Of a DNA stretch of 64,000 nucleotides, positions 9,345 to 58,500 are shown in pieces; the first letter of the stretch is position 1, and every line of letters starts with the position of its first letter. The DNA is from an uncultured Subdoligranulum sp. Its GTDB lineage: Bacteria > Bacillota > Clostridia > Oscillospirales > Ruminococcaceae. Where the stretch lies: NCBI GenBank assembly GCA_945830575.1, contig CALZZE010000003.1, forward strand, positions 1 through 64,000. Direction: 5' to 3'. Made by a program: the position numbers and the translations under genes. The notes under the pieces are model-generated. The model made no database searches and was not told the origin of the DNA. It saw only the letters and a list, made by a program, of their open reading frames with translations.

Positions 9345-9376
9345 ATGACACATCCTCCGCTGATTGTATAGTATAG

Positions 9377-9405: not shown

Positions 9406-9433
9406 CTCAGAAAAACCACAAAAACGTGAAAAT

Positions 9434-9468: not shown

Positions 9469-9569
9469 GAGGATACAGCGCTCCCGTGCCGCAGGCCGGG
9501 GAAAAAGCCAACGCAGGGGCAACCGTAGGAATAACGGCGTATTTGCGCCGAAAAAAGGAGGAACTTTCC

Positions 9570-9989: not shown

Positions 9990-10013
9990 GCCGCCGCCGG
10001 AATCCGCCTGATT

Positions 10014-10051
10014 TCCCGGCCTGTCCCCAGGTGACCGGCCGGGACTTTTTT
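10014..10051 (+). terminator. Intrinsic terminator after the dUTPase-like gene
   Basis: TCCCGGCC pairs with GGCCGGGA across a 14-base loop, followed by CTTTTTTG. Confidence 0.75.
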
Positions 10052-10078
10052 GCGATTTTTTCCCAAAACGTGGCGTTT

Positions 10079-10113
10079 TTGTGCCTGTTTTGCCCCAGAA
10101 GGGCTGATATAAT
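10079..10113 (+). promoter_or_regulatory. Promoter with 11-bp-spaced direct repeat (site C)
   Basis: TTGTGC (10079) and TTGCCC (10090) are 11 bp apart; 12 bp later is TATAAT (10108-10113) preceded by CTGA. It drives the ECF sigma factor gene. Confidence 0.6.
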
Positions 10114-10145
10114 AGAGGCAAACAAGCGTCAGGAGGGCGGACAGA

Positions 10146-10655
10146 ATGGACGAGCAATGGGTGGAACGGCTGGTAGAGGAGAACCGAAGTGCCCTGCTGG
10201 CATACTTTAGGCGCCATGTGTCCGGTCGGGAGGACGCGGAGGACCTGCTGCAGGAGGTGTTTCTCTCCTGCTACCGTCACCGGGAAAGCTTTGACCCGGC
10301 CCGATGCAGCGAGAAAGCCTGGCTGTATGTTATCGCCAAAAACCGTCTGCGGCAGTATTACCGGGACACAAAACAGACCGTCAGTCTGGATGAAATGTCG
10401 GAAAATGGCGCCGAGCCGGCGGACAGCACCGCACAGGAGGCCGCCGGTCTGATGGAATGCCGTGACGCGGTGGCAAGGCTGCTGCTGACGCTGGACGAGC
10501 GCAGCCGAACCGTGCTGGTGCTGCGGTATTTCGAGGGACTGGATTCCCAGCAGGTGGCCGAGCGCATGGGGCTGTCACCGGTGAATGTCCGGGTCATCCA
10601 GAGCCGGGCGCTGAACGCCCTGCGGGAGCAGGCGGAACAGATGCATCTGCGCTGA
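10146..10655 (+). CDS. ECF-type RNA polymerase sigma factor
   Basis: A 169-residue sigma-70 family protein of extracytoplasmic-function size. Region 2 is visible as LLAYFRRHVSGREDAEDLLQEVFLSCYRH ... AWLYVIAKNRLRQYYRD, and region 4 as LDERSRTVLVLRYFEGLDSQQVAERMGLSPVNVRVIQSRALNALRE with a clear helix-turn-helix. The start ATG follows AGGAGGGCGGACAGA. No anti-sigma factor gene is adjacent: the next gene encodes an acyltransferase-like protein and the previous one a dUTPase-like protein. Since several CTGTAAC-N16/17-CATATAT promoters (a -35 typical of ECF sigma factors) lie within the same 60 kb, it is a natural candidate to read them, by inference only. Confidence 0.9.
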   Translation: MDEQWVERLVEENRSALLAYFRRHVSGREDAEDLLQEVFLSCYRHRESFDPARCSEKAWLYVIAKNRLRQYYRDTKQTVSLDEMSENGAEPADSTAQEAAGLMECRDAVARLLLTLDERSRTVLVLRYFEGLDSQQVAERMGLSPVNVRVIQSRALNALREQAEQMHLR

Positions 10656-10667
10656 ACAGGGAACACC

Positions 10668-10694
10668 AACAGCCGCACCGCTGCGGCTGTTTTC
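10668..10694 (+). terminator. Intrinsic terminator after sigma factor gene
   Basis: AACAGCCGCA pairs with TGCGGCTGTT around a CCGC loop, with TTTTCC following. Confidence 0.8.
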
Positions 10695-10703
10695 CTATGC
10701 CGC

Positions 10704-10732
10704 TTGACTTGTGCGTATAAAAGCGATACAAT
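10704..10732 (+). promoter_or_regulatory. Sigma-A-type promoter for the acyltransferase-like gene
   Basis: TTGACT (10704-10709), 17-bp spacer, TACAAT (10727-10732), 40 bases before the ATG at 10772. Confidence 0.7.
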
Positions 10733-10771
10733 AAAAATCACGATTTTCTGGCAGGAAGGAGCGTCTTTCTC

Positions 10772-12055
10772 ATGAGAGACATTATCTGCGAGTCAACGAT
10801 GTTTTACGGGGTGGACGAGCATCGAATCAACACCTACCGCATCCTGTTCCGCATGAAGGACGCCGTGAACGGCCGCCTGTTACAGCTGGCCGCCGCACAG
10901 ACGCTCAAGCGGTACCCTTACTATGCGGTGCGCTGCGTCAGCGACGGGAAGGAATATCTGCTGGAACCCAACAACGAGCCGTTTGCGGTGCGCCGCACCC
11001 CCGACCCGCTGCCGCTGGGCGGCGAGGAATCCGGCGGGTATCTGCTGGCAGTGACCTATTGGGAGGACAAAATCTGGCTCGACGGATTCCACGGTCTGAC
11101 GGACGGCACCGGCGCGCTGAATTTTGGCCGCACACTGCTGTACTATTACTGCCGGGAGGCCTATGACCCGAACCTGCCCTCCGATGGCGTGCGGGTCAAC
11201 GAGGATGGCCCCATCCCGGCGGAGGAGTGGGACAACCCCTACACCAGAATCATGAGCGGGGAGACCGTTCTGCCCGATGAAACGGACATTCTCATTCAAA
11301 CCAGGCCGGATACCTCCCGCAAGCCGCTGAGCTTCTTCGAGGACCCCCGCCTGACCTTCACCGAGCCCTATTATTATGACCTGCGCATCCCGGAGCGGGA
11401 GCTGATGCAGTATTGCCGGGCGCAGGACGGCACCCCCGGCGTGGTGCTGTCGCTGCTGATGGCCCGCGCCATCGACCGGCTGAATCCGGACAGCGACCGT
11501 CCCATCGTCACCGGCATGGCGATCAACCTGCGCCCTGCGCTGGGCGCGCCGCTGTACAAAGGCTCCACGCTGGGGCTGGCTCTGCTGCCCTATGCCGGAC
11601 GTATCAAGCAAAAGCCCTTTGACGTGCAGGCCACCATCTGCCGGGGGCGGCTGCTGCTGGCCTCCGACCATGAACGGCTGCAGGCTGGCGTGAAGGCTTC
11701 CACCCAGTTGTACCGGGCCATCGACGCCCAACCCACGCTGGAGAAAAAGAAGGAGCTGGTGCGTAATGTGGTGGCCCGCTACCACGGCAGCGCCACCTTC
11801 AATCTGAGTTATGTCGGCCCGGCCAAGCTGGCTGCCATGGACCCCTACGTGGAGGAGCTGCAAATGCAAAACGACAGCCCCGGCATTACGGTGGAGGTGG
11901 TGGCGGCACACGGCAGCTTCTTTTTGGAAATCGTGCAGGACTGGAAGGAGACCCTGTACGTGGATGCCTTCTGCGAGGAGCTGACCGCCCACGGCATCGG
12001 CTATGAACTGCTTTCCCATGGCGAGCATCACGTACCGGCCATTCAGCTGCCGTGA
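10772..12055 (+). CDS. Condensation-domain/alcohol-acetyltransferase-like protein
   Basis: A 427-residue cytoplasmic protein of the CoA-dependent acyltransferase (condensation/AATase-like) superfamily. The catalytic HxxxD appears as FHGLTDGTGAL near residue 108, and a DFGWG-like C-terminal region is represented by NLSYVGPAKLAAMDPYVEEL. No carrier domain is attached, so it is a free-standing acyltransferase; the substrates are unknown. The start has GCAGGAAGGAG upstream, and a sigma-A promoter and a terminator isolate it from the sigma gene, so it is probably monocistronic. It converges with the response regulator gene. Confidence 0.72.
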   Translation: MRDIICESTMFYGVDEHRINTYRILFRMKDAVNGRLLQLAAAQTLKRYPYYAVRCVSDGKEYLLEPNNEPFAVRRTPDPLPLGGEESGGYLLAVTYWEDKIWLDGFHGLTDGTGALNFGRTLLYYYCREAYDPNLPSDGVRVNEDGPIPAEEWDNPYTRIMSGETVLPDETDILIQTRPDTSRKPLSFFEDPRLTFTEPYYYDLRIPERELMQYCRAQDGTPGVVLSLLMARAIDRLNPDSDRPIVTGMAINLRPALGAPLYKGSTLGLALLPYAGRIKQKPFDVQATICRGRLLLASDHERLQAGVKASTQLYRAIDAQPTLEKKKELVRNVVARYHGSATFNLSYVGPAKLAAMDPYVEELQMQNDSPGITVEVVAAHGSFFLEIVQDWKETLYVDAFCEELTAHGIGYELLSHGEHHVPAIQLP

Positions 12056-12071
12056 ATAGGCGAATCACCGC

Positions 12072-12929
12072 TTATCTGCCGGTTTCCGGGGTCTGGCTCT
12101 TTTGCTGTACGAAGTTTTCCAGTGCGCCGGTTTCCCGCTCGGCCCAGGAATACTGGGTCATAAACTCCCCGTTGTAGCTCCGCATGGCCTCCGGGTCGGA
12201 TTTCATCAGGCGGTAATAGTCGCAGTCCAGAAGCTCGGTGTTCACCGCGATGTTGTTGTACCGCTTGGAGACGACCCCGTTGGCCCCGGCCTGCTGCAGT
12301 GCCTCCATCATGGAGGAAAGAATTTTTTGCATATACTGGCACTTTTTGGTGTCATACGGCTCGTCCTCAAACAGGACGGCCGCCAGCTCCCGCACGGTGC
12401 AGGCCGCACCGCTGCGGTACACCAGATAGGCAAAGGCCTCCTTGGCCTTGCTGCGGGAAAAATGCAGTGTCTGCCCGTTGGGCGCGAACACATCAAAGTT
12501 GCCAAGGCAGCGCACCCGCAGCAACGCCGGTACGCGGGGATAGCGCAGGTCTGACAGTTCCTTCTCGATTTTGGCCCTGTTCACCGGCTTGAGAATGTAG
12601 CCGCTGGCGTGCAGCGCCATGGCATCCCCGGTATACTGGTCGTACCCGGTGACGAAAATCAGGTTGACGGCAGGGTTTTGCGAGCGCAGCGCCTCCGCAA
12701 GCTCCACGCCGCTCAGCCCCCGCATCTGGATGTCCAGAAAGGCAACGTCCACCGGATTGTCCCGCACATAAGCCATCACCTTCTCCGGCTTGGCAAAGGC
12801 CATGATCTGGGCCTGGGGGCGGACGCTTTTGATGGTGCGTACCAGCAATTCAAGAGCCAGCGGCTCATCATCCACCGCGACAACGCGCAGCGGGGTGTTG
12901 TCCGTGGTGGCAGTATCAGGCAGATTCAT
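12072..12929 (-). CDS. Response regulator with SARP/OmpR-like winged-helix output domain
   Basis: A 285-residue two-component regulator. The receiver domain (about residues 14-130) has the acidic pair DDE, the phospho-acceptor Asp66 in VAFLDIQMRG and the Lys in YILKPV. A winged-helix domain follows (LLRVRCLGNFDVFAPNGQTLHFSRSKAKEAFAYLVYR ... ELAAVLF), the pattern of SARP/BTAD-type transcriptional activators (GNFDVxxxG and RSKAKEAFAYL). The start at 12929 has GGGAGGTATTCAG upstream. It is divergent from the histidine kinase gene with a 150-bp intergenic region, and the two almost certainly form a pair. SARP-type proteins bind 11-bp-spaced direct repeats, which is notable given the repeats described elsewhere in this window. 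Confidence 0.87.
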   Translation of the reverse strand: MNLPDTATTDNTPLRVVAVDDEPLALELLVRTIKSVRPQAQIMAFAKPEKVMAYVRDNPVDVAFLDIQMRGLSGVELAEALRSQNPAVNLIFVTGYDQYTGDAMALHASGYILKPVNRAKIEKELSDLRYPRVPALLRVRCLGNFDVFAPNGQTLHFSRSKAKEAFAYLVYRSGAACTVRELAAVLFEDEPYDTKKCQYMQKILSSMMEALQQAGANGVVSKRYNNIAVNTELLDCDYYRLMKSDPEAMRSYNGEFMTQYSWAERETGALENFVQQKSQTPETGR

Positions 12930-13079
12930 CTGAATACCTCCCGTTGATGTTTTGTATTTATTATAGCAGACAGAATAGTACAACATAGTGACAAAATGCG
13001 GGGGCTTGGGCGATTCCGGAAAAAATCTTTTTGCAGAGGTCCCAGTCTTGCTCACCATTCCATGCCGGAGGCGGTTGCC

Positions 13080-14891
13080 ATGAAACAGAAACTATTGTCC
13101 ATGCTGCCCGCAGCGGCGGTGGTTGCCCTGCTGGCCCTTGTGGTGGCCGTGCGCAGCGCGACCACCAGCCAGTCCATCCGCAGCTTTGTGGTCGGGCCGG
13201 ACTACTCCGCCGAGTACAGCACCGACGGGCAGCACTGGTACCCGCTGACCGCGGCGGACAGCGCCCCTGATGCCAATGATGACGTTCTGTATCTGCGGGG
13301 ACATTTTCTGCGGGATTGCCCGGAGGGCGTGCCGCTGAGCTTTTACCTTAACCACCTGTTTTTTACCATGGAGGTGAACGGCGAGATCGTCATTTCCTAC
13401 CTGCCGGACGGGGACGGCCCCTTCCCGGAGGGAGACCTGTGCGGTTCCCAGTGGTACAGCGTGCTTTCCCCCGGCATCACCACGGCGGATGAGGTGACCT
13501 TCACGCTGGTGGACACCCACAGCGTTGGCAGCCGGGTGGCCTACCGGGATTTTTTGAAGTATATGTTTGTCGGCAGGCTGGAGAATGTCAAGAGCTATCT
13601 GACGCCGATGTGGCAGGGCTGGCGGGTGATGGGCATTGTGCTCATTGCCAGCGGCGTGGCGCTGCTGGGTATGGCACTGGCGGCGATGTTTGCCAACCTG
13701 CCGCTGGACAGATGGCTGGGACGGCTGAGCATCGTGACGCTGTTCGCGGGAATCTGGCTGCTGTTTGACACCATCGATGTGCAGCTGTGGAGCGACCGCA
13801 TCGTGATGAACACGGCGCTGGTGCTGGTCAGCCGGATGGGCGTTGCCTTTGGGCTGGGGCTGTGCATCAATGTTTCGGTGGAGGCGGCATCCCTGCGATG
13901 GCAGAAAACCGCCCGGATCGCCTCCGGCGTTTTAGGGGCCGGCACCGGGCTGCTGGCGTTGCTGGTGGTCTGCAATGTGATGACGCTGTGCGGCGCGGAG
14001 CCCTGGTGGAGCGCGCTGTGGACGCTGTGCGGTCTGGTGATGATGGGCTGCCTGGCGGCGGCGCTGCGCCGGAAGGTGACGGTGGATGCCGTTGCCCTGT
14101 CGCTGCTGCTGCTGAGCTGGCTGGCGGACCTGCTCAATACGGTGTGGCTGTGGTGGCCGGACGGTGTGGCCGCCAAGGTGTGCATGGCGCTGGTTCTGCT
14201 GGTGGAGATGCTGGTGGGCATGCACGGCGTTTTCAAAAATTATGAGGCGGCCAGCCGGGCCATGGAGATGGAACGGGAGCTGCAAAGCAGCCGGATGCGC
14301 ATCACGCTCAGCCAGATTCAGCCGCATTTCCTGTACAACTCGCTGACGGTGATTCAGTCCCTCTGCGGCATCGACCCGGCGGCGGCAGAAAATGCCGTAA
14401 ACGAATTTGCGGAATATCTGCGGGGCAACATGAACTCGCTGACACAGGAAAAGCCCATCTCCTTTTCCAAAGAGCTGGACCACACCAGACACTATCTGGC
14501 GCTGGAGCAGCTGCGCTTTGGTGACCAGCTGCAGGTGGAATACGACCTTGGCCCCACCGGGTTCCAGCTGCCTGCACTCAGCCTGCAGCCTCTGGTGGAA
14601 AACGCCATCCGCCACGGTGTACGCGCCAAGACCGATGACGCAGGCACGGTGCGCATCGTCACACGGGAAACGCCGGTATTTTACGAGGCGGTGGTCATTG
14701 ATGATGGCCCCGGCTTTGACCCGTCCGCTGTGCCGCAGGACGGCACCCATGTGGGCATCACGAATGTGCGCCGCCGGATGCAGATGATGTGCGGCGGCGA
14801 GCTGGTGATCGAATCCGCGCCGGGCGCGGGCACGCAGGCGACGCTGCGCGTCCCCAAACAGGCCGCTATGCCGGAAGAATCTGCTATTTGA
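13080..14891 (+). CDS. LytS/His_kinase-type sensor histidine kinase
   Basis: A 603-residue membrane sensor kinase. After a signal anchor comes an extracytoplasmic beta-rich domain (about residues 30-175), then about seven to eight membrane segments (7TMR-DISM-like layout). The kinase part has the phospho-acceptor His416 in LSQIQPHFLYNSLTVIQSL (PF06580 type), the N box QPLVENAIRHGV, G1 VIDDGPGFD and G2 HVGITNVRRRMQ. It should phosphorylate the divergently encoded response regulator. The ATG at 13080 follows GGAGGCGGTTGCC; the longer track ORF adds an unlikely extension. Confidence 0.88.
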   Translation: MKQKLLSMLPAAAVVALLALVVAVRSATTSQSIRSFVVGPDYSAEYSTDGQHWYPLTAADSAPDANDDVLYLRGHFLRDCPEGVPLSFYLNHLFFTMEVNGEIVISYLPDGDGPFPEGDLCGSQWYSVLSPGITTADEVTFTLVDTHSVGSRVAYRDFLKYMFVGRLENVKSYLTPMWQGWRVMGIVLIASGVALLGMALAAMFANLPLDRWLGRLSIVTLFAGIWLLFDTIDVQLWSDRIVMNTALVLVSRMGVAFGLGLCINVSVEAASLRWQKTARIASGVLGAGTGLLALLVVCNVMTLCGAEPWWSALWTLCGLVMMGCLAAALRRKVTVDAVALSLLLLSWLADLLNTVWLWWPDGVAAKVCMALVLLVEMLVGMHGVFKNYEAASRAMEMERELQSSRMRITLSQIQPHFLYNSLTVIQSLCGIDPAAAENAVNEFAEYLRGNMNSLTQEKPISFSKELDHTRHYLALEQLRFGDQLQVEYDLGPTGFQLPALSLQPLVENAIRHGVRAKTDDAGTVRIVTRETPVFYEAVVIDDGPGFDPSAVPQDGTHVGITNVRRRMQMMCGGELVIESAPGAGTQATLRVPKQAAMPEESAI

Positions 14892-14910
14892 GAAATTTTT
14901 TGAAAAATTC

Positions 14911-14940
14911 TGTAACACATCCCCCTTCTGCTGCATATAT
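14911..14940 (+). promoter_or_regulatory. CTGTAAC-type (ECF-like) promoter
   Basis: TGTAAC (14911-14916), 17-bp spacer, CATATAT (14934-14940), preceded by the A-rich GAAAAATTC. It lies just after the kinase stop codon and 35 bases before the small peptide gene. Confidence 0.6.
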
Positions 14941-14974
14941 CTTTATAGAGAGACTTGAGGAAAAAGGTGATGGT

Positions 14975-15178
14975 ATGATGACAGAACGGGACGTGGAACG
15001 AATGCTGGAAACCGCTGCGGAAAGCAGCGGGATGCCGGGCTGGAATGACCGGCTGCAATGGCTGGTGGACGCCACGCTGGCGGGCTGCCGTGGGGGTCTG
15101 GCGCTGGAGGATGCGTTTCTGGACGAGGTCGCGGCGGGAAAGGGCATCCCCGACTTCCCAAAGGCCACGAAGCTATAA
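14975..15178 (+). CDS. Small acidic protein of unknown function
   Basis: A 67-residue product (MMTERDVERMLETAAESSG ... DFPKATKL) preceded by GAGG/AAGGTG and by an ECF-like promoter, and followed directly by a strong terminator, so it is a self-contained transcription unit. It has no signal peptide, no cysteine cluster and no double-glycine site, although LDEVAAGKG near the C-terminus loosely recalls the LDEVAGG leaders found elsewhere in the window. Function unknown. Confidence 0.6.
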   Translation: MMTERDVERMLETAAESSGMPGWNDRLQWLVDATLAGCRGGLALEDAFLDEVAAGKGIPDFPKATKL

Positions 15179-15196
15179 TATATAAAGCAAAAAGAA

Positions 15197-15228
15197 CCCC
15201 CTGCCGTGCATCTTTGCACGGCAGGGGG
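15197..15228. terminator. Bidirectional intrinsic terminator
   Basis: CCCCCTGCCGTGCA and TGCACGGCAGGGGG form a perfect 14-bp stem, with AATTTT on one side and A-rich sequence on the other, between convergent genes. Confidence 0.9.
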
Positions 15229-15246
15229 CAATTTTGTCAGGAGACG

Positions 15247-18200
15247 TTATTTGCGGCGGCGCTTGCGGATCACGAGGAGAACAAGGCCCGCCAGAGAAAT
15301 GCCCAGCAGCGTCACCCACAGCAGCAGGGGGCTGTCATCGCTGGTACGGGGGATGGCTCCAGTCGCCTTGGCTGTGGGGGTGTCGTCCACGCCCCAGGTG
15401 CCGTTGCGGATGGCCTCCCCGATTTCGGGATGCTCGCTGTGAGGGGCGGCGCTCCAGCCTGCCGCGAAGGGGGACAGGCTGCTCACCGTCACCTGCACCT
15501 CCCGCTCGGAAATCACCGTCACGGCGGGGAACTCAATGCTGCCCGCATCGCCCTCCATGCTGTCGATGGTGCGCATGTGCGCGACCACGATGGCCTGCTG
15601 CCGGGCGTTCACGCCCTCAGGCAGGGTCAGCGTCACCGTCACAGGCTCGGCCAGTTCGCCGTCCACGGGCTGCCACTGGCCGTTGTTCTGCCGCATTTGC
15701 AGCTGGACGCTGTACAGGGCGCTGCCCTCCAGCGCCAGACGGCCGGCCAGCGCGTCGTGCAGAGCGGTCTGTGCCTGCTGGACGGTCATGCCCTCCGGCA
15801 AATCGTCGTCACGCAGGCCGGACTGGGCCTGTACGCGGGAATCGCTGGTCTGGGCGGCGGTGACGTCCTCAAACACAGCGGTGAGAGTGCGGGAGGCGGT
15901 GAGGGTCAGCGTCAGCGGGGCATCGGCGCTCACGATCGCGCCGTTTTCCTGCCAGCCCACAAACCGCTTGCCTGCGGCGGGCGTGACCGAGAGGGTCAGC
16001 ACTGCGTCGTCCGGGGCGGTGGAAACCGTGCCGTCGCTGATGGTCTGCGTGTCGGAGACACCCTCCACCTGCACGGTGCCCTGTGCAGGGTCAGCGTTGA
16101 GGGTGAGCAGATGGCTGCCCGCGTCCTCAAACACCGCCGTGAAGGTGCGGTGGTCCTCCGCGCAGTCGGTGCACTGGATATGGAGGGGATTGTCGGTGGA
16201 AACGATGACACCGTTTTCCTGCCAGCCCGCAAAGCGGAAACCGTCTGCGGCGGTGGCGGTCAGGTCGGTGGAGGCTCCCTGAATCAGACCCTTATCTCCG
16301 GCAGTGGTGCCGGTGAGGGGACGGGCCACCTCGGTGCCGATGTGCTGGAAGGCCGGGTCCTTGTCCGGGTTTTCCAGCATCAGGGTGCCATGGGCTGTTA
16401 CGCTGTCGATGCCGCCATCCGCATCGGTGGTGAGGTACAGCAGCAGATAGCGGTGGTCTGCCATGGCTGCCGTCACATCCAGCGTGGTTGTGTATCTATG
16501 CTCGCTCCATTGATTGTCGCCCAGGTCGTTGCTGTCTGTCAGCTGCCTGTCGCTGCCCAGTGCGGAGAAATCCAGCACGAGCTGGGGTGTTTCGCTGGAA
16601 TCCGGTTCACCGTCCCCGTCATAGGCGATCTGCATCAGCTTGAGATCAGCGAACTTCACCGGTACTGTGGATTCATTGGTAATGGTCAGGTCCACCAGCC
16701 TGCGGTCTCCGTAGGAGAACAACTCGCCCGACAGGGTCAGCATCGGCTGATCCATCTGTACCTGAGCGCTGCCGTAGGGAACCGTGTCTTCATCCGCCAG
16801 TGCCGCCGGGAATGTTTCGTTATAGGACGCCTGCACATGGATGGTGTGTGCCCCGTTTGTCCAGCAATTCAAAGCGGTGAAGGTGGTCAGCGTGAGCCAC
16901 TGGCTTTCACCGGGAGCCAGCGCCGGGGACAAACCATAGGCCACCGTGCCGTATTGTCCGGATTCATTGTTCAGATGGATGAGATCCCCATGTTCATCCT
17001 GCGCCTTCAGCCATACCTGATCCTCGGTCTGGCCGCCGTTGTTGGTGATGAGAACCTGCAGCTCCACGCCTGTCTGACCGCGCTTGACCACCGCCATCGG
17101 CAGATATACCTCCTCGGCGGTCAGATCACGGTCAAGCTCCTTGTGCCACTGGCGCACATCACACTGGCTCACTGTGCCGGTGGCATCCGCCGTCACATCG
17201 GCGTTGTACACAAGGCTCAGTCCGCTCAGGCTGTTCAGATTGCTGCCCGGATGGGTCAGCACCGCGAACCCGCCCACCGTGCTGGTATCAGACAGCTGGT
17301 ATTCCTGCGCGGTGTGGATGGTGAAGGGCAGATTTTCCGTATCATAGAAGAACTGGTTTTTCACCACGTTGGCGGCGTTGCCCTGTTCATCCACGCGATG
17401 CACCAGCGTGATGAGATTGCCGCAGTGATTGGTGCTTTCCGGCAGTACCGACAGGGCATAGCTACCCTGCCCGGAGCCAATGTGCAGCTCGGTGCCATCG
17501 GTATTTTTGGCGGTTTCAGCGGTCAAAGTGCCATCCTCGTTCATTACCACCCGCACCAGCCGCCCGGCGCTGACCAGATACAGGCAGTTGCCGGAAACAT
17601 ACACATGCTCCAGCAGGTTCTGGCTTTCCGTTTCGCTGAGGATGCCGGTGTCGATGGGCAGTGCACACTCCATGCCCCGTACACCCTTGCCATTGCTGTC
17701 ATAGGCGCGCAGGCGCAGGCCGGTACCACTCCAGCTCACCCGCAGCAGACAGGGCTGGCCTTCGCCCACAAGCCCGGTGCTGAGCATGGAATTTTTGATG
17801 GTGCCGATGCGTGTGATGCCGGCCTCATCGCCGTTCCAGCGGCGCAGGGTGCCGGTATTGGCCTTGGAGGTGAAGGCTTTGCTTTCGATCCACATGGGAT
17901 TGCAGAGATTGCCCACACCCGCCGCCTGCGGGCTGTGGCAGTAGGTGCCGTCCGGTTCCCGCACCTGCTGGTCAAACAGGACCTCGCCGGTGCTCAGATT
18001 CAGTGTGATGCCCCGCACGCCGGTGGTGGCGGCGCGCTGCTCCAGCGTGTCGCCCTTGTCAAAATCGCCGGTGATGAGGGTGATGTACACATTGTCCTGG
18101 CTGGCGGCATCGGTGTTCTGGGTGGCATTGGCGGTCACGGCGTAGCTGAACACATCCGGGGTGTTCAGCACGTGCACATCGCCCTCCAAAGAGCCGTCTT

Positions 18201-46474: not shown

Positions 46475-46757
46475 GCAACTACACCGATGAGGAAGAGTGA
46501 GTAAGCGCCGCACCCAACGGCACAGAGAGCCGCGGCAGGTGGAAAGCGGTACGCAGGGCAGCGCTTAATGGACTTCCGAGGGCGACCCGAACGCCAGCGC
46601 CAGTAGGGGAGACGGAGCGGCACTCCGTTACCAAATGTCAGCGTATGTTTGTACGCGTTGAGTGGGCGCAGTCCGCGCCAAGCCGGGTGGTACCGCAGAA
46701 GTGAATTTTCGCTCCTGTCCCAGCAACGAACCGTTGCAGGACGGGAGTTTTTTGTGC
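46475..46757 (+). ncRNA. T-box riboswitch, tryptophan-type
   Basis: Stem I begins with GATGAGGAAGAGTGAGTAAG. The specifier region reads AATGGACTTCCGAGGGCGA, putting codon TGG (Trp, about 46569-46571) in the specifier position. The T-box itself is GGGTGGTACCGC at 46685-46696. The terminator is CTCCTGTCC ... GGACGGGAG followed by TTTTTT (46712-46757). It should sense uncharged tRNA-Trp and allow readthrough into the trpB gene, which is however gutted. Confidence 0.9.
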
Positions 46758-46790
46758 CCCTTTCCCGCGCACACAAGAAAGGAGCCTACC

Positions 46791-47312
46791 ATGAGCCAGC
46801 ACGAAATCCCCTACAAAATCTACCTGCAGGAATCCGAAATGCCCACCCGGTGGTACAATCTGCGCGCCGACATGAAGAACAAGCCCGCGCCGCTGCTCAA
46901 CCCGGCGACCCTCCAGCCCTGCAAGCCGGAGGAACTGGAGGCGGTGTTCTGCGCGGACCTCGTCCGGCAGGAACTGGACGACACCACGCTGTTTTTTGAC
47001 ATCCCGCAGGAGGTGCGGGAGTATTACCGCACCTACCGGCCCAGCCCGCTGGTGCGCGCCTACAATCTGGAGAAAAAGCTGGGCACCCCCGCAAAAATCT
47101 ACTACAAGTTTGAGGGCAACAATACCTCCGGCAGCCACAAGCTGAACAGCGCCATCGCGCAGGCCTACTACGCCAAAAAGCAGGGCCTGACCGGCACCAG
47201 CTACTTCGATATGGTGGCCTACGAGAAATTCCACAACGGCGAGATGAGCGACTACTTCCCCACCGACGCCGACCTGCAGACCGGCTTTGACGGTCTGCCC
47301 GCACAGCCGTAA
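46791..47312 (+). pseudogene. trpB: Tryptophan synthase beta chain (TrpB2 type) with large internal deletion
   Basis: The 173-codon ORF encodes the first about 130 residues of a TrpB2-type beta chain (YLQESEMPTRWYNLRADM, RPSPLVRAYNLEKKLGTPAKIYYKFEGNNTSGSHKLNSAIAQ, which includes the PLP-lysine region HKLNSA) fused in frame to its C-terminal tail (YFDMVAYEKFHNGEMSDYFPTDAD). TrpB2 proteins are about 450 residues, so about 280 residues, including the glycine-rich phosphate loop, are absent. It should be inactive as tryptophan synthase. GAAAGGAGCC precedes the ATG, and the intact Trp T-box is still in front. Confidence 0.87.
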
Positions 47313-48518: not shown

Positions 48519-48905
48519 TCAAATTTTCATAGTTACATCACTCTGAGAATCCCGGCGGTACTGGGAGGGCGTGATGCCCTCGGATTTTTTGAACACCTTG
48601 GTGAACACCCGGTAATCCCCATAGCCGGACTGCTCCGCCACCTCCGCAACGGACAAAGAGGTGGAGAGCAGTAATTTTTTTGCCTTTTCCATGCGGATGC
48701 TGGTCAGGTAGGCCAGAAAATTCACCCCGATCTCGCTTTTGAACAGCTGGCTGATGTACTGGGGATTCAGATGGAACTGCTCCGCCAGCACCGACAGGCT
48801 GAGTTCCTCCGCCAGATGCTCCTGCAAATACCGGGTGATGCCGGTGATGGTCCGCTCCTCCTGTTTTCCGGCTCCGCCGAGACGGAAAAAACAGATTTTC
48901 CAGCG
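48519..48905 (-). pseudogene. Truncated AraC-family regulator (DNA-binding domain only)
   Basis: The ORF holds a complete AraC-type double helix-turn-helix: LSVLAEQFHLNPQYISQLFKSEIGVNFLAYLTSIRMEKAKKLL and VAEVAEQSGYGDYRVFTKVFKKSEGITPSQYRRD. Upstream, residues LGGAGKQEERTITGITRYLQEHL continue the homology, but a stop (TAA) interrupts at a TTTTTT run. The adjacent frame (YDLCGVTLENLFF) would join it with a one-base shift. The receiver or sensor domain expected before it is absent. It is probably the 3' part of a response-regulator/AraC gene, broken by frameshift and deletion. Confidence 0.72.
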
Positions 48906-48919
48906 TTACACCGCACAAA

Positions 48920-49075
48920 TCATAGGTCCACCGATTCCGCACCGGGGGCCGGCTCAAAATGCGGGCGGCCCTCCCGCAGGCAGGTCAGGATGCGGGCGAT
49001 GGGGACCTGCGTGGGGCAGGCGGCCTCGCAGGGGGCGGCGCAGTCGGCGCAAACATCGGCCTGGGGCAGGCGAAG
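48920..49075 (-). pseudogene. C-terminal fragment of a [4Fe-4S] oxidoreductase
   Basis: In this frame the sequence reads LRLPQADVCADCAAPCEAACPTQVPIARILTCLREG and ends AESVDL-stop. CxxCxxxCxxxCP followed by VPIARIL is the pattern of C-terminal ferredoxin-like domains, as in iron-sulfur aldo/keto reductases. Homology stops abruptly near 49076, exactly where the LanM-like fragment begins on the other strand, so this is a deletion/fusion junction. Confidence 0.45.
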
Positions 49076-49081
49076 GGCGGC

Positions 49082-50155
49082 ATTGCGGCGTTTGCGGCGG
49101 AATACGCGCAGGCCACGCAGGACCCGCGGGCGGTGCAGATTTTGCAGGATTACCGAAAGAAAATCCGCCGCGCCCAACACAACATCGAGACGGGCGGCGG
49201 CGCCGCGCAGTTGGGAGGTCTGGTGGGCTTCACCGGACTGACCGGCGGCGTCAAAACGCTGCTGATGGCCGGACGCACCCTGAACGAAGAAGCGTTTGTC
49301 AGCACAGCGCTGTCCCTTGCGGAGCTGCTTTGCAGCGTCCCGGTGGACAGCATCACGGCGTGTGATTTTTACGGCGGTGCGGCGGGGCTTTTGTATCTGT
49401 TGTGTACCGCGCCGAAACTGCGGGCCATGCCGAACCACCCGCAGCGAACCGAAGCACTTTGCCAGCGGCTGCTGGCCCTGCAAACGCTGGACACCAAACA
49501 GGGCATCCGCACGTGGGACACCCTTGGCAAACAGCGCCCCATCAGCGGGCTGGGCCACGGCATTGCGGGCGTTGGGCTGGCACTGGCCGCCGCATGGCGA
49601 CTGTATCCGTCGGAGGAACTGTACGCGGCCATGCGGGACGCCTTCCTGCTGGAGGGGCAGCTGTACCATGACGCCATGGGGACCTGGCCGGATTTCCGGG
49701 ATTCCTCGGTGCCGTCCGGCGCCATGAACGGTTACTGTTCCGGCGCGCCGGGCATGGGCGCGGTCTATCTGAGGCTGCATCAGCTGGGCATCACCGAATT
49801 TGACGGTGACATGGAAAAGGCCATCCGGTCAGTGACCGCAGCGCCGCTGATGTCCCGCGACCACTGCTGCTGCGGCAACGGCGCAACGGTGGAATTTCTG
49901 CTGGACGCGGGCCGGGCGCTGAACCGTCCTGAACTGACCGAAACCGCGAAGGAGCGCCTGACCGCCATGGTACAGCGCAAAGCCGCCAAGGGGCAGTTCA
50001 CCTTCCTGCCCGCCGATTATGAAAACTACAGCCCCTTCGGACTGCTGAACGGAATCGGCGGTCTGGGTCATCTGCTGCTGAAAGCGCAGGGCCTTGCGGC
50101 GGGAAGCCTGTTTTTTGAAAAAAGCTGTAACAAAATGGCGAGTTGTGTGTATTAG
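49082..50155 (+). pseudogene. C-terminal cyclase domain of a class II lanthipeptide synthetase (LanM), N-terminus missing
   Basis: About 357 residues matching the LanC-like cyclase half of LanM. Landmarks are ETGGGAAQLGGLVGFTGLTGGVKTLL, FYGGAAGLLYLL, SGLGHGIAGVGLALAAAW, the first zinc-ligand region GYCSGAPGMGAVYLRL, and DHCCCGNGATVEFLLDAG, where the usual CHG ligand motif is CCG as in ProcM-type, substrate-tolerant enzymes. The about 600-residue N-terminal dehydratase is absent. Without it, the protein could not phosphorylate and eliminate Ser/Thr. It directly precedes Nif11-type precursor genes, the normal partners of CCG-type LanM enzymes. Confidence 0.8.
50126..50154 (+). promoter_or_regulatory. 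CTGTAAC-type (ECF-like) promoter, weaker -10
   Basis: TGTAAC (50126-50131), 16 bp, TGTATTA, preceded by TTTTTTGAAAAAAG as in the other sites. It lies inside the last codons of the LanM fragment and 50-75 bases before the first Nif11-type gene. Confidence 0.5.
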
Positions 50156-50202
50156 ATTATAGAACCCGACACAAACACACAAACAACAGGGAGGTATCCG
50201 AT

Positions 50203-50457
50203 ATGAAAACCTTACAGGAGCTGTACAACGAAGTGATGAACAGCGATGCGCTGAAAACCGAGTTTCTGACGCTGACGACGCCGGAGCAGGTCGTGGCCTT
50301 TGCCGAAAAGAACGGCTGCCCCGCTACGCTGGAGGAAATCAAGAGCTTTTTTGAGGAACAGTCTGCCGCAGCGGGGGAACTGTCCGATGAAAAATTGGCC
50401 ATGGTAGCTGGCGGCGCCGTGTTTACACCTGAATTTTACACTCCGATACAGGCCTGA
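50203..50457 (+). CDS. Nif11-type double-glycine precursor peptide
   Basis: An 84-residue precursor with a long Nif11-like leader (LQELYNEVMNSDALKTEFLT, then TPEQVVAFAEKNGCPATLEEIKSFF) ending SDEKLAMVAGG. The core is only AVFTPEFYTPIQA: two Thr and no Cys, so lanthionine rings cannot form in it. GGGAGG precedes the ATG. A second copy follows 40 bp later. It belongs with the LanM fragment upstream and the ligase/ACP/GNAT genes downstream. Confidence 0.85.
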   Translation: MKTLQELYNEVMNSDALKTEFLTLTTPEQVVAFAEKNGCPATLEEIKSFFEEQSAAAGELSDEKLAMVAGGAVFTPEFYTPIQA

Positions 50458-50497
50458 GCCGATGCACCCGGAACAATCCAAAGGGAGGGAACCAAAC

Positions 50498-50893
50498 ATG
50501 AAAACCTTACAGGAGCTGTAGACCGAGGTCATGAACAGCGACGCGCTGAAAACCGAGTTTCTGGCGCTGGCGACGCCGGAGCAGGTCGTGGCCTTTGCCG
50601 AAAAGAACGGCTGCATCGCCACGGTGGAGGAAATCAAGACCTTTTTGGAGTAAAAGTCTGCCGCAGCCGGGGAGCTGTCCGATGAGGAGCTGGCTCAGGT
50701 GGCTGGCGGCAAGAGCGCTACAAAGCAAGAAGCAATCCTCTCCGCCTGCACGCTGGGAGCGTACTGCTTATACAGGGCCCAATTCAGCTATATGAATGGA
50801 AAATGCGGCACAGACATCCAGGGCGAAGGCATGCTGTGCGAGCTGGAAAAAAAGGAAGAGAAAAAGGCAGAGGCCGGAGAGGTCCGCTGGTAA
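50498..50893 (+). pseudogene. Second Nif11-type precursor gene with two in-frame stops
   Basis: The leader is nearly identical to the first copy (MKTLQEL*TEVMNSDALK ... EKNGCIATVEEIKTFLE*KSAAAGELSDEELAQVAGG). Codon 8 (TAC in copy 1) is TAG at 50519-50521 and another sense codon (CAG in copy 1) is TAA at 50651-50653. After the GG a longer, different core remains open: KSATKQEAILSACTLGAYCLY ... CGTDIQGEGMLCELEKKEEK, with four cysteines. AAGGGAGGG precedes the ATG. Internal restart at GTG 50699 could still give the core only. Best read as a nonsense-inactivated precursor. Confidence 0.82.
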
Positions 50894-50948
50894 TATACGG
50901 GGAACGATTGATTTTCTCTCCATGGGCAAAAAGAGGGTCGGGGACACG

Positions 50949-52194
50949 ATGAACTATTACAACAAGATGGTATCCGGTGGGGAACTGGAAGGACTGGATT
51001 ATCTGCCCACCCTGCCGCAGCTGCTGCGGTTTGCGGGCAGCCGCTACGCGGAGGAGGCGGCCATCGGCAGCCGGGAAAGTACCTATACTTATGCACAGCT
51101 GGTTTCCCGCGTAAAGCGCCGCGTGGCCTGGCTGAACACGCTGGGCCTTGCCCCCGGCGCACACATTGCGGTGCTGGCTCCCAACGACCTCAACGCCATG
51201 GAGCTGTTTCTGACCATTCCGTCGGCGGGCTTCACCGTCATGATGCTGCCCGCCTCCCTTGGCGGGGCGGCGCTGACCGGTATCGTGCAGCGGTATGACG
51301 TTGCCTGCCTGCTTGCCGCCGACGGTGCGGAGACCGCCGGTGTGCCCTGCCCGGTGTACGGCACCGGCGCCCTTGCCCCCGCCGAGGCCGACTTTGCCCC
51401 GGTACGCAAGGAAACCCCGCGGCCATCTTTCTCACCGGCGGCACCTCCGGGCGGCCCAAGGGCGCGGTGCTTTCCCACGGGGCTCTGCTGCTGGGCATCG
51501 CACGGCTCAGGGGCAAAGCGTTCCTGGGCAATCTGCGCCTGATCATCAGCGGTGCCGCGCCGGTGCCGCCCCGCCTGATGCAGGCCTGCTGGGAGTATGC
51601 CATTCAGGTCTGCCCCGGCTACGGCCTGACCGAGTGCGCCAACCTGACCGCAGGCAACGCCGATGCCGCTGAGTTTCCTGAGGCTGTCGGCCCGGCCTAT
51701 CCCGGGCAGCAGGTCAGGGTGGTGGACGGCGAGCTGTGCATCAAGGGCGATAACGTGATGCTGGGCTACTACGGCGAGCCGGAGCTGACCGCCAAGGTGC
51801 TGGTGGACGGCTGGTTCCACACCGGCGACCTCGCGGAACTGAGGGAATACAAGGGCGAACCATTCCTCGTCATCACGGGGCGGGTCGACAACCTGATTTT
51901 GCTGGGCAACGGCGAAAATGTCTCGCCGGAGGCGCTGGAGGCCCGATTCTATCAGGAGCCGCTGGTCAAGGACTGTCTGGTGAAACCTATGATCGTCAAC
52001 GGCAACGAGGTGCTCGGCATTGAAATTCTGCCGTTTGCCCCGGCGCTGGCGGGCTGCTCTGAGGAGGAAACCCGGCAGAAATTGCAGGAGGTGGTGGACA
52101 GAATCAACCGGACGCTGCCCACCTGCCAGCAAATCGCAAAGCTAATGGGGATTTCAAGCGCTCCCCCGCCATGAAAATTCTGCGGAACCAGTAA
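50949..52194 (+). pseudogene. Acyl-CoA/acyl-ACP ligase (AMP-binding), frameshifted and internally deleted
   Basis: An ANL-family adenylating enzyme in pieces. Frame 1 (50949-about 51415) has the N-terminal domain (YTYAQLVSRVKRRVAWLNTLGLAPGAHIAVLAPNDLNAMELFL). After a frameshift near 51415 comes the P-loop AIFLTGGTSGRPKGAVLSHGALL, then a deletion of roughly 100 residues joins it to FLGNLRLIISGAAPVPPRLM, YGLTECANLTAG, WFHTGDLAEL and GRVDNLILLGNGENVSPE. A second frameshift near 52150 is needed to reach the catalytic-lysine tail DFKRSPAMKILRNQ. With two frameshifts and a deletion it should be inactive. It was followed by the ACP gene, so its original role was probably to load an acyl chain on that carrier. 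Confidence 0.85.
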
Positions 52195-52204
52195 AGGAGA
52201 AACG

Positions 52205-52438
52205 ATGGAAACCTTTGAGCAACTGAAAACCGTCTTTGCGCAGGTCATGCCCCAGACGGACATTTCCCATGTTACGCCGGAAAGCTCCATCACCGGGGAC
52301 CTTGGCGTGGACTCCCTGCACATGGTTCTGCTGGCCATTGCGCTGGAGGACGCGTTCAAGGTACGGTTTGAGGGAATCCCGCCGTTCAAAACGGTGGGGG
52401 ACATCGTGGCCTTTCTGGACAAAAACCGCACCGTATGA
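52205..52438 (+). CDS. Acyl carrier protein
   Basis: A 77-residue four-helix carrier protein: FEQLKTVFAQVMPQTDISHVTPESSITGDLGVDSLHMVLLAIALEDAFKV. The phosphopantetheine serine is in GVDSLHM. It is intact, starts 10 bp after the ligase remnant with AAAGGAG in front, and is followed by the GNAT gene. In such a gene order it should carry an activated acyl group for transfer; a fatty-acid-synthesis ACP is unlikely from context. Confidence 0.9.
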   Translation: METFEQLKTVFAQVMPQTDISHVTPESSITGDLGVDSLHMVLLAIALEDAFKVRFEGIPPFKTVGDIVAFLDKNRTV

Positions 52439-52451
52439 GGAGCCGGACGCC

Positions 52452-53120
52452 ATGCTGCAAATGGAAGAACTGATTTTTCTGCAATACATGCTGCTGCCCG
52501 CCGAATGGCACTGCCCGCTGTCCGATTATTTTATGCGGATGGTACAGGCTGGAGCGGGCCGGGCGTACCGCCTGTGCGCGGACGGAGCCCCGGTCAGCTA
52601 TGCGGTGGTTCTGCGGGAGGGCGTGGGCTGGCGGATGCCCTATCTCTTTACCCACCCGGAGCAGCGGCGCAAGGGCTATGCCCGGCAGATGATTCGACAG
52701 CTGGCGGAACAGCTGGACGGCTATCTGCGGGCGCATATCATCCAGACACACCCGTATTATGACGCCATGATGGCCTGTCTGCAATCGCTGGGGTTTGTGG
52801 TGAACGATGCAAGCTGTGTGTACAGTGTGGAGGTGGACGGGCGTTTCTGGGCGCGCATGGAGGAGCTGAACCTTGTGCGTGTGAAGGAGTTCCTGCTGCG
52901 CGGCGGTCTGACCTGCATGCCGCTGTGCGCTACACTGGAGGCCATGCGGAAGGACCCGCAGATTCACAAAATGAAGCTGACCATCAGCGACGGAAACCAG
53001 CGTTCGTATCAGTTTGTCATGGAGATTCTGAAAGGCCTTTCCATCGAAGAAACGAGAAATGTCAGTCTCGCCGTCACGGCGGCGATGCTCAAACAGACCG
53101 GCGGGGAAATGAAACGATAG
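52452..53120 (+). CDS. GNAT-family acetyl/acyltransferase
   Basis: A 222-residue product from ATG 52452. The GNAT core is visible: AYRLCADGAPVSYAVVLREG, MPYLFTHPEQRRKGYARQMIRQLAEQL (motif A, RxxGYA) and PYYDAMMACLQSLGFVV. The last about 80 residues (LRGGLTCMPLCATLEAMRK ...) are an extra helical domain. Together with a carrier protein and an AMP-ligase, it fits a module that transfers an acyl chain from ACP to an amine, as in GNAT-type maturases of fatty-acylated RiPPs. The start overlaps no other gene, and a terminator follows at 53186. Confidence 0.78.
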   Translation: MLQMEELIFLQYMLLPAEWHCPLSDYFMRMVQAGAGRAYRLCADGAPVSYAVVLREGVGWRMPYLFTHPEQRRKGYARQMIRQLAEQLDGYLRAHIIQTHPYYDAMMACLQSLGFVVNDASCVYSVEVDGRFWARMEELNLVRVKEFLLRGGLTCMPLCATLEAMRKDPQIHKMKLTISDGNQRSYQFVMEILKGLSIEETRNVSLAVTAAMLKQTGGEMKR

Positions 53121-53185
53121 CGGCCGGAACTGGCATACGCAAACCGGGCTCCGCTTCCTGATGAAATAAAATAGAGAATAAAGCA

Positions 53186-53217
53186 ACCTGCCGACAAAGG
53201 AAGTCGGCAGGCTTTTT
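53186..53217 (+). terminator. Intrinsic terminator after the GNAT gene
   Basis: CCTGCCGAC and GTCGGCAGG pair around AAAGGAA, followed by CTTTTTTG. Confidence 0.9.
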
Positions 53218-53224
53218 TGGGCCG

Positions 53225-53412
53225 TTATGCGTCCAGACAGGATTGCGCCATCAGCGCCACGGCGATTTTCAGGCCGGTGGTCAGGCTGCGCAGGTCCACC
53301 CATTCCTGCCGGGTGTGGGCCAGACCGCCGGATACCGTGCCGATGGTGTTGGCCGGGATGCCCAGAGAAAGCGGAATGTTGCTGTCGGCGGAATTGGGGG
53401 TGTGATCCGGCT
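53225..53412 (-). pseudogene. C-terminal remnant of an M20-family peptidase
   Basis: Minus-strand translation reads TPNSADSNIPLSLGIPANTIGTVSGGLAHTRQEWVDLRSLTTGLKI and then AVALMAQSCLDA-stop. S-x-D-x-N-IPLSLGIPA and the AHTRxEWVDL block with the last zinc-ligand His are typical of the C-terminus of PepT-like/M20 tripeptidases. Only about 62 residues remain; homology breaks near 53412. Confidence 0.75.
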
Positions 53413-53657
53413 CAAATTGCAGTATGGTCTGAACACAGAGGCATAGTCCCTCATCAAATCAAGTTCCCCCATGCCGATTTTCTCATTCCGATCGTTACAC
53501 GAACCAATGAGATAGTCCATAAAGGATGATGCACTCAAATTTTCCGCCCATCGGGTGATCTGTGGACATTTTCAAATCCGTTATTTTCCACAAAGAGCCG
53601 GACTTGAATTTGTGGAATGCCACAAGGAAACGCCCCGACACGGGAATTCAACGCAGA
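53413..53657. other. AT-richer gap, no gene seen
   Basis: Between the M20 remnant and promoter site H there is AT-richer sequence with only short, unconvincing ORFs. It may be residue of deleted genes. Confidence 0.5.
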
Positions 53658-55517: not shown

Positions 55518-58500
55518 TTACCATAGGACGAAGCTGCGGCGGCTGTTGATGCCGTTTTGCAGCAGGGTCATGGCCTGCTCCAAGGTGGCGCAGCCCGCAT
55601 CCTGCAGGGCAAAGCTCAGGCAGGTGTCGTCAGGGGTTTCCTGCGTGGCCTCGGTCTCGGAAACGGTCTTTCCGGGGGAGAGGGGCGCAAACCGGGCCTC
55701 CAGCGTGCGGCTGGCGGTGAGGGTCAGCGTCAGGGTGGGCTCGGTGCCCAGCAGGGTGTTGTTTTCGTACCAGCCGGAGAACTGGAAGCCGTCGTATGGC
55801 TCCGCGGACAGGGTCAGTTCTGTGCCGTCCAGCGCGGAGGCCTGCAGCGTTCCGCCGGTGCGGTCGATGGACAGCAGGGAGCCGTCCACCGTCACGGCAC
55901 CGTCGTCCTGGGGGATGGATTCGCCCTCGACGGTGGATTCTGTAGGCTCCACGGTCAGGGTATGTGCGGTGTCGTCCTCAAACACAGCGGTGTACACCAC
56001 GTGGTCACCGGGGGCGGGATCGGGCCGGAAAGTCCAGTTGGCGGCGGTGGAAACCTCCTTGCCGCTGCTGTCCACCCAGCGGACAAAGCGGTACCCTTCG
56101 TTGGCGGTGGCTTTTAAGGTGATTTCTCCGCCCTCATTGGCCACATAGCCCTTGTCACCCTCGGTGGTGCCGGTGAGCTGACGCTCCACGGCGGTGCCCA
56201 CATGGGTGTACACGTCCGGGGTGGGGGTTTCCAGAATGACTTTGGTGCGCTGGATCAGCGAGGCCTTCTGTGCATCAGTGAGTGTGGTGCTGGTCAGATA
56301 CAGGGCAATGTAATCCGCGTCTCCCCACTGGCCGGTCAAATCCACCGACAGATTGTAGCTGTGGTTCAGCCACACGCCGCCCGTCTGGCTGGCATCGGTC
56401 ACCGACCCACTCAAACCGGAAAAATCCTTCAGAACAAAAGGATTATTTTTGCCGTTTTGCACGACCAGCTGCAGCCCCTCAAAGGAGGCCGGATTCATGG
56501 ACAGGTTGGTGATGGTCACATGACCGGTGATTTTCTGCTGGCCATTTGCATCAACGGGATAGCTCAAATCCACGTCCATGGTCAGGGCGGGGTCGCTGGC
56601 TACCGAGAGGGTGGTCAGCGGCACCCAGTCATTCTCGTTGGTACGGCTGTTGGTGTTGTTATTCACGCAGGCACTCAGCGTGATGGTGTGGGCGCCCTGC
56701 TCCCATTCGTTTGGAATGCGCAGCCAGAACCCCAGAGTCGAGGCCATGCCGGGGGCAATGACGTGGTCTACAGCATATACTTCGGGAAGTACCCCGCCGC
56801 CTTCGGGGAGGAAGAGAATCGAACGGTTTTGCTCGTCCTTGGCACTCAGAAGCAGATGCTCCACGTTGCGGCCGCTGGTGGTGTTGCGCACCGTCGCCTC
56901 AACGTAGAAATAGGAGTCATTTTTCGAAATCAAGTCCTTGCGCGGCGAGATGCTCTCCACCTGAACGCCGTCGGTCAGCGTATGCGTCCAGGAATAGACG
57001 TCACAGCTGCGCACGTTGGACTGGGAATCCGCGTTGGGAACGGTGTACAGAAGCTGGACGGATTCCACAGCATTTTTGCTGCCGTTATAGTGGGCCGTGG
57101 CGCAGAACGAGCTGATGGGCTTGACGGTTTCATTGGAATTGGGATCCACCAGCTGATAGGTTTCCGGCTCGGTCACCCGCAGGCGGCCGGTGGATTTGGT
57201 GAAGAAGAAGTTGGAAACGGTGTAGCCGGTCAGTGTCTGGACATAATCGACGGTATTGTTTTCGCCGGTGACGGTCTCCAGCTTCGTGTCGGGGGTCAGC
57301 TGAATCAGGCAGCCGTAGGTATCGTCGTTGCTTCCGGGGGCAATGACCAGCTGGCAGGCTTCGCTGCCGCCGATGCCGTCAAAAACGTCGCCCTCCAGAT
57401 ACTGGCCGCTTTCACTCAGCCAGTGGGCTTCGCTGATGGAGCCATTGTAAGTGCTGTACATGAAGAAGTGGCTGCCGATGATAAAGTAGACAAATCCCTC
57501 GCTGACGCAGGAGGCGGAAATCATGGGGCCGGTCCAGGTCAGGGGTGTGCTCAGCGGGAGGGTGATGTTTTCCTGCGTGGCTTTGCCGTAGCAGTCAAAG
57601 CCGCGCAGCATCAGGGAGCTTCCGTTGGCGCGGACAAGGAAATACATGGCCTTGCCCGGCTCCACCTTGCCGGTCAGCAGCAAATTGCCGCTGTTGGCGC
57701 TGGTGCGGTATTGCTCCTTCGTTTGGTTGTTGTACCAGCAAAGGCCCAGACCTTTCTGGTACCACACAGGCACACAGTGGCCGTCGGTGCCGGTCACCAT
57801 GGGATTCTGAATCTCGTTTTCCTTTTCCTTGGGAACCAGGAAACTCTCTGTGGATTTGTGGCCGGATACGTCCCAGGTCAGGCCGAACATGCGGGTGGAG
57901 TTGGCGCGGGCCGTGTACTCGGTGGTGCCGTCATAGTCGGCAGTGACCAGCGCGATGTACACACAATTGACGTCCTCTTCGTCCACCATGACGGCATAAC
58001 GCACGACGTCGAGAGGGGCGCCCTGCGCAGACTTCGGCGAGACGATGTGAATGTCGTTGACGTTGTTGCTGCCGACCTCCTGATACACCAGACGGGGCTT
58101 GCCGCCCACCGAGGCGATGCGGAACAGATACTCGGTGTTATTTACGTTGACCAGCTGCATTTGCGTGTCGCCCTGCACATCGTCCAGAATCAGGCTGCTG
58201 CCCGCCATGCGGCTGGCCAACAGCGGACTGGCATTGGAGGCGTAGGAGCCTTCGGTCGTATCCGTTTCCGACACGGCGCTCAAATCCATCGATACAGGGG
58301 TGGGGGAGTTCGATTGCGGCTGGGAGGAGGGGCGCAGCGGTTCCCACACATTGTAGGGCCACTTGCCCCCAATCGTGTAGGAGACGGAGAAGAACAGGGC
58401 GGTGGCCGATAGAGTCAACCCGGCCTGGAAAGCGCCTGTGACATGGGGGAAGTCTCTTCCCGGGGGCGGCGGCAAGGGCGGCGTCCAGCGCTTCGCGGGT

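Follow-up and report, generated by a model that had tools for sequence, protein, structure and literature searches.

A decayed class II lanthipeptide locus with ligase, acyl carrier protein and GNAT genes in an uncultured Subdoligranulum

Gene content and decay of the locus

Our analysis of a 64,000-nt stretch of DNA from an uncultured Subdoligranulum sp. (the window) indicates that one of its loci is probably what is left of a selidamide-like class II lanthipeptide cluster, now non-functional, that made a peptide with an acylated side chain. The locus spans positions 49049-53217 of the plus strand and comprises, in this order, the C-terminal part of a LanM gene, the genes for Nif11 precursors 1 and 2, an AMP-forming ligase, an acyl carrier protein (ACP) and a GNAT, and a terminator-like hairpin. 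The linkage of these genes goes beyond chance: among 396 family genomes, the LanM of this locus and a strong match to its GNAT are found in the same two, and the order LanM-Nif11-ligase-GNAT recurs in another genus. Domain searches and a hairpin at 53187-53211 bear out the gene names, order, coordinates, single strand and closing terminator of an initial annotation made from the letters alone; the decay reaches further than that annotation held, and affects four of the six genes (LanM, precursor 2, ligase and GNAT).

The LanM part (49049-50155, plus strand; LANC_like E 4.9e-32, TIGR03897 E 1.3e-48) shares 54% identity across 328 aa with residues 564-891 of a LanM from G362 (CALZUA01), a metagenome assembly of an uncultured Clostridia bacterium from a genus other than that of the window. 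The N-terminal ~563 residues are absent, leaving the cyclase part alone and no dehydratase. Both proteins carry the zinc-site motifs NGYCSG and CCG, the second of which reads CHG in 10 of 12 control LanM ORFs, the remaining two being partial. Judged by these motifs, the window LanM would be of the CCG type (ProcM clade) with three Cys zinc ligands; a three-Cys zinc site is also described for NpuM (PMC13060382). It scores 165.5 bits with the LanM model versus 22.0 with LanKC, and does not appear to be a class III LanKC synthetase of the kind that marks lipolanthines and goadvionins.

Precursor 1 (50203-50457, plus strand) is an open frame of 84 aa. Its leader matches TIGR03798 (E 7.3e-7) and PF07862 (E 2.1e-4) at 29.4 and 22 bits, below the curated cut-offs of 32.3 and 23.8, respectively, and ends with an AGG site. 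The core comprises the 13 residues after Gly-Gly, AVFTPEFYTPIQA, with Ala at +1 and with neither Cys nor Lys. Thus, the initial description of this gene as intact holds for the reading frame and fails for the core, and precursor 1 has probably lost its function although its frame is open. The leader DNA of precursors 1 and 2 matches at 188 of 213 positions, indicating that the two are duplicates. Precursor 2 (50498-50893, plus strand) is a pseudogene with two in-frame stops in the leader (50519-50521 and 50651-50653). Its core, in which Lys directly follows Gly-Gly, contains KCGTDIQGEGMLC plus a tail at the end and, in contrast to that of precursor 1, has Cys as well as Ser/Thr.

The ligase gene (50949-52194, plus strand) is likewise a pseudogene, with two frame changes and ~75 residues fewer than its relative in G362. 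The AMP-binding domain is found in two ORFs of the broken gene (E 1e-12 and 5.1e-15), and AMP-binding_C_3 is recognized as well (E 4.6e-9). For LanM, precursor 2 and the ligase, the lesions agree with the initial annotation. The following ACP gene (52205-52438, plus strand; PP-binding E 1.7e-6) encodes 77 aa with the DSL attachment motif in an open frame, as had been noted, and is the only gene of the locus that looks intact. We considered its integrity as a sign of selection and rejected this, since a 231-bp gene escapes seven lesions spread evenly over 4072 bp with a probability of 0.66.

The GNAT gene (52452-53120, plus strand; Acetyltransf_1 E 5.6e-6) had been taken as intact. Its frame of 222 aa is open, but compared with the full-length forms an in-frame deletion has removed ~84 residues from the second GNAT domain (positions 158-241 in G362 numbering). 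All three G362 copies and the GNAT of a third genome, G269, retain this segment, and we therefore rejected 222 aa as the ancestral length. In a model predicted for the G362 GNAT (mean pLDDT 66), it covers three strands of the second domain together with the beginning of one of its helices. The model matches tandem GNATs along its whole length, including 2wpx (Z 17.6, rmsd 6.1, 273 aligned) and VipF (7wx7; Z 14.1, rmsd 5.1, 251 aligned). A GNAT profile gave no sequence match at E<=1 among PDB chains. An R-R-x-G-Y-A stretch lies in the first half; NpuN, likened here through its published description and not its sequence, is also a tandem GNAT with the P-loop in the first half (PMC13060382).

With LanM, precursor 2, ligase and GNAT broken and precursor 1 devoid of likely acceptors, no product is expected from the locus. 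Since precursor 1, the ACP and the shortened GNAT all have open frames, they could in principle make a simpler acyl peptide. However, the second domain of the GNAT has lost strands and part of a helix, the core of precursor 1 has no Lys, and an intact short ACP is what the escape probability leads one to expect, so that a partly working locus is highly improbable. For the same reasons, namely the internal deletion and the missing acceptor, the acyl transfer onto the Nif11 peptides that the initial annotation proposed to assay is expected to fail with the window's own parts.

Relatives in other genera

G362 has three copies of the locus. The one on contig C3 consists of an intact LanM of 918 aa (463 bits, above the cut-off of 304 for TIGR03897) together with four Nif11 precursors and a GNAT of 300 aa. 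No ligase or ACP gene is found between precursors and GNAT, nor beside this locus. Beyond the GNAT, the opposite strand carries RsbW-like and phosphatase-like genes as well as two NHLM exporter genes, and further along the contig there are ten more Nif11-like ORFs, which are of other kinds.

The other two G362 copies are decayed. On contig C1, a decayed LanM is followed by a Nif11 leader that runs into a ligase, which in turn runs into a start-less GNAT; apart from deletions at the joints, this LanM-Nif11-ligase-GNAT order is that of the window. Contig C41 harbors LanM pieces and an internally deleted GNAT. C1 and C41 share 95% identity along 1.7 kb, indicating that they are duplicates, and C3 is ~73% identical to both. 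The next-best ligase matches in G362 are far weaker (27-39% identity), which identifies the C1 and window ligases as counterparts. The search for relatives with the same order, as suggested at the outset, thus yielded an intact LanM on C3 and the order itself on C1, and no locus with all five parts (LanM, Nif11, ligase, ACP and GNAT) intact was found in the genomes searched.

The only ACP match in G362 shows 40% identity and is encoded on a contig other than those of the LanM loci; the other ACP match of the window genome, on its contig C7, shows 37%. A consistent separation of ligase, ACP and GNAT from LanM and Nif11 genes, named in the initial annotation as speaking against its reading, is therefore not what we see for the ligase and the GNAT, while between the window and G362 a LanM-linked ACP occurs in the window only.

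A third genus of the same family contributes a more distant locus (L042 in G269). Its full-length GNAT is 25-26% identical; immediately after this gene come an ACP gene and two ketosynthase-like genes, and slightly further on a Nif11 precursor that has Lys at +1, along with two radical SAM genes. The locus thus resembles the window in its related GNAT, adjoining ACP and Nif11 precursor, and differs in that two radical SAM genes replace LanM and two ketosynthase-like genes replace the ligase.

These relatives bear on the view that ligase, ACP and GNAT form an unrelated lipid operon beside a dead lanthipeptide locus. In the window alone the genes are merely neighbors, and the lack of an intact five-gene locus among the searched genomes would fit this view. 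In G362, however, the GNAT follows LanM and Nif11 on C3 and Nif11, ligase and GNAT follow LanM on C1, a linkage that refutes it for GNAT and ligase, and in G269 a Nif11 locus includes both a GNAT and an ACP. As a control, LanM was found in 10 of 361 class genomes including that of the window. Among the 14 matches, one is the window itself and a fragment (G918:C19) was left out of the other 13; the ten LanM stretches of 16-20 kb from the nine other genomes contain no GNAT, ACP, ligase or Nif11 gene. We thus regard the unrelated operon as improbable.

Precursor cores and the putative acceptor lysine

The core of precursor 2 has been conserved in G362. It is identical at 23 of 51 positions to the core of the fourth C3 precursor, and both start with Lys and share KCGTxIxGxGMLC. 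The local alignment score of 87 was not reached in any of 5000 shuffles (maximum 48). The cores of the other three C3 precursors begin with K, GK and K; the second has GGGK at the junction of leader and core, which makes its cleavage site uncertain. Ser/Thr and Cys are present in three of the four C3 cores, the third having no Ser, Thr or Cys.

Lys at +1 is found in five of seven GNAT-linked precursors (two from the window, four from C3 and one from G269) versus 2 of 16 other Nif11 precursors of G362 (p 0.011), a count that serves as a hint and not as a test because the precursor genes are related to each other. Identical Nif11 genes on contigs C27 and C29 of G362 entered the count once, and the L040 Nif11 fragment running into the ligase was excluded as it has no core. 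A Nif11 gene with Lys at +1 at L040:12626-13018, ~1.1 kb past a decayed GNAT, was scored as not linked; without it, Lys at +1 is found in 1 of 15 unlinked precursors (p 0.004).

Gene content, the conserved core and published precedent together make ring formation and acylation of Lys1 the best reading of the ancestor. Its CCG-type LanM would have bound the Nif11 leader and formed (methyl)lanthionine rings in the core, the tandem GNAT would have transferred an acyl group to Lys at core position 1, and a C39-type NHLM exporter may have cleaved after Gly-Gly and exported the peptide. The idea of an ancestral acylated lanthipeptide, already put forward in the initial annotation, draws support from the gene order in a second genus, the intact LanM-Nif11-GNAT locus, the Lys-first core and the npu cluster of Nostoc punctiforme.

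Origin of the acyl group

From the gene order we infer that the ligase fed the GNAT by way of the ACP: the ligase would have charged the dedicated ACP with a carboxylic acid that it had activated. That a Clostridia branch of side-chain acylated lanthipeptides carried such a supply of its own, in which a ligase charges a dedicated ACP and the tandem GNAT moves the chain from the ACP to Lys1, is a proposal we advance tentatively. The position of the ligase between Nif11 and GNAT in two genera favors it, as does the ACP gene directly behind the GNAT gene in G269, and the only intact LanM-GNAT locus, on C3, counts against it, having neither ligase nor ACP.

Alternatively, the GNAT may use ordinary cellular acyl-CoA or acyl-ACP, with ligase and ACP as dispensable accessories that are being lost. 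C3, which retains LanM, precursors and GNAT, fits this scenario, as does NpuN, which accepts acyl-CoA in vitro and in whose report the main text mentions neither a ligase nor an ACP (PMC13060382). It explains less readily why the ligase keeps its place in two genera and why the related GNAT gene of G269 directly precedes an ACP and ketosynthase-like genes. We consider it possible, at somewhat less than even chances.

The nature of the acyl group has to be weighed as well. The best solved relatives of the ligase include feruloyl-CoA, coumarate-CoA and fatty-acyl-CoA ligases with similar scores, so that homology does not fix the acid, and the best fold matches of the GNAT model include acetyltransferases. 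Both would agree with a product that is not a lipopeptide, in which the GNAT transfers only a small moiety, for instance acetyl, or the acid activated by the ligase is of the aryl type. On the other hand, NpuN, a tandem GNAT with Nif11 and LanM partners, attaches C16 chains on expression in Escherichia coli (PMC13060382), and a dedicated ACP points to carrier-bound chains; a short or aryl group therefore seems unlikely.

If the cluster did have its own supply, the tail would be chosen by the cluster and not by the acyl-CoA pool of the cell, and G269 would represent a second arrangement, with the chain assembled on the ACP itself. The remnant suggests that acyl-loading enzymes were part of some such clusters, in which case the tail could be selected by feeding acids. 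It also points to a Clostridia genome with an intact LanM-Nif11-GNAT locus, which could be expressed in E. coli and makes the idea testable.

Comparison with known lipidated lanthipeptides

Few lipidated RiPPs are known. The nearest is nostolysamide, whose npuA/npuM/npuN cluster shares with our locus the Nif11 leader, the three-Cys LanM, the tandem GNAT and, as in precursor 2, a Lys directly after the leader (PMC13060382). NpuN acylates Lys1, for which Lys3 and Lys24 are no substitute, and the role of the lipid is described as unclear (PMC13060382). The npu cluster has one precursor and comes from a cyanobacterium (PMC13060382), whereas the window has two precursors together with ligase and ACP, all in decay. 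Phaeornamide and other selidamides also combine a class II LanM with a GNAT that fatty-acylates a side chain; in contrast to our locus, they have an NHLP leader, an arginase and a hydroxylase that yield hydroxyornithine, and a fatty acid from primary metabolism (PMC9505594, PMC10373908). No such arginase or hydroxylase genes were seen adjoining the window locus. In lipolanthines (such as microvionin) and goadvionins, the acyl chain is made separately and then coupled to a lanthipeptide by a GNAT; these systems have a class III synthetase, N-terminal acylation and chains of polyketide or fatty-acid type (PMC13060382, PMC10373908, PMC9505594); the window differs in its class II LanM and Nif11 leader and in having no PKS gene. 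We thus rate the combination of LanM, Nif11 and GNAT as already known from npu, and ligase and ACP as the new elements. The open-licence literature, a scope outside which the original selidamide survey falls, yielded no report of ligase and ACP genes within a LanM/Nif11/GNAT cluster.

Distribution and genomic context

Searches with the window GNAT matched 17 of 396 family genomes at E<=0.001, with the window's own genome, G362 (2.2e-57) and G269 (3.2e-11) set apart from 14 further genomes with E values of 2.3e-5 to 9.6e-4, which we take to be general GNATs. The G362 LanM as query reached E<=1e-15 in G362 and the window genome only. At the order level (394 genomes, E<=1e-8) the GNAT was found only in the window's own genome, and a wider profile applied at the class level (361 genomes) added one weak match (G806, 1.2e-8). 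The window GNAT alone had no match among assembled genome contigs, where an alignment-based search recovered three loci, all in G362. No relatives were detected in 72,556 plasmid records, in 50,697 phage records or in viral contigs. A LanM- and precursor-linked GNAT gene is seen in the window and on C3, C1 and C41, and such clusters have decayed repeatedly, in two genera.

Within the genus, the GNAT is present in 1 of 35 genomes, that of the window, a sporadic spread that is compatible with an old transfer as well as with repeated loss. The G/C content of the cluster (0.609) is close to that of the window (0.600) and far from that of the C3 cluster (0.457), so that the sequence shows no sign of having recently arrived from a donor resembling G362. 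Downstream of the GNAT, the terminator-like hairpin (53187-53217 with its T run, plus strand) has nine pairs and six T; the surrounding 5-kb region contains 11 sites of this kind versus 5.8 expected. Just upstream of the LanM part, a truncated AraC gene and a 4Fe-4S remnant are located on the opposite strand.

DNA surrounding the lanthipeptide locus

The lanthipeptide locus is set in a stretch with several broken genes. Upstream of the LanM fragment, the gene for a TrpB-like PLP enzyme (window positions 46662-47312) looks truncated or internally deleted, with residues 1 to ~125 of its product aligning to a family of 440 residues and the remainder without a match. Immediately before the LanM fragment, on the minus strand (48519-49078), lie an AraC-type HTH part whose N-terminal part is absent and, adjoining it, a ~50-residue 4Fe-4S remnant recognized by a weak, Fer4_20-like match.

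Judged by DNA similarity, the region downstream of the locus (53217-53550) looks like a gene remnant beside a repeated element. Four other genomes of the genus contain DNA with 75-81% similarity to positions 53249-53413; positions 53414-53548 are 90-97% similar to contig C17 of the same genome as the window. A minus-strand gene at 55518-58475 encodes a 985-aa protein that carries InlB B-repeat-like (Flg_new_2) repeats close to its C-terminal end and is probably a surface protein.

Exporter genes and Nif11 precursors elsewhere

The genome of the window harbors an NHLM exporter gene pair on a different contig (C4:27350-31258), where it adjoins glycosyltransferase genes; no Nif11 match was found in the surrounding stretch (L090).

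A RiPP-like locus in a third genus of the family (G269 contig C211, about 5604-18109; stretch L042) has the two genes of the NHLM exporter alongside a full-length GNAT, an ACP, two ketosynthase-like genes and two radical SAM genes. Its Nif11 precursor has a Gly-Gly followed directly by Lys. The product may be a Nif11 peptide bearing an acyl chain that is built on the ACP.

On contig C3 of G362, an uncultured Clostridia bacterium with an intact LanM-GNAT locus, ten consecutive Nif11-like ORFs (119000-132000; stretch L089) are located close by, past the exporter genes of that locus. Their short cores are varied, and the majority lack Cys.
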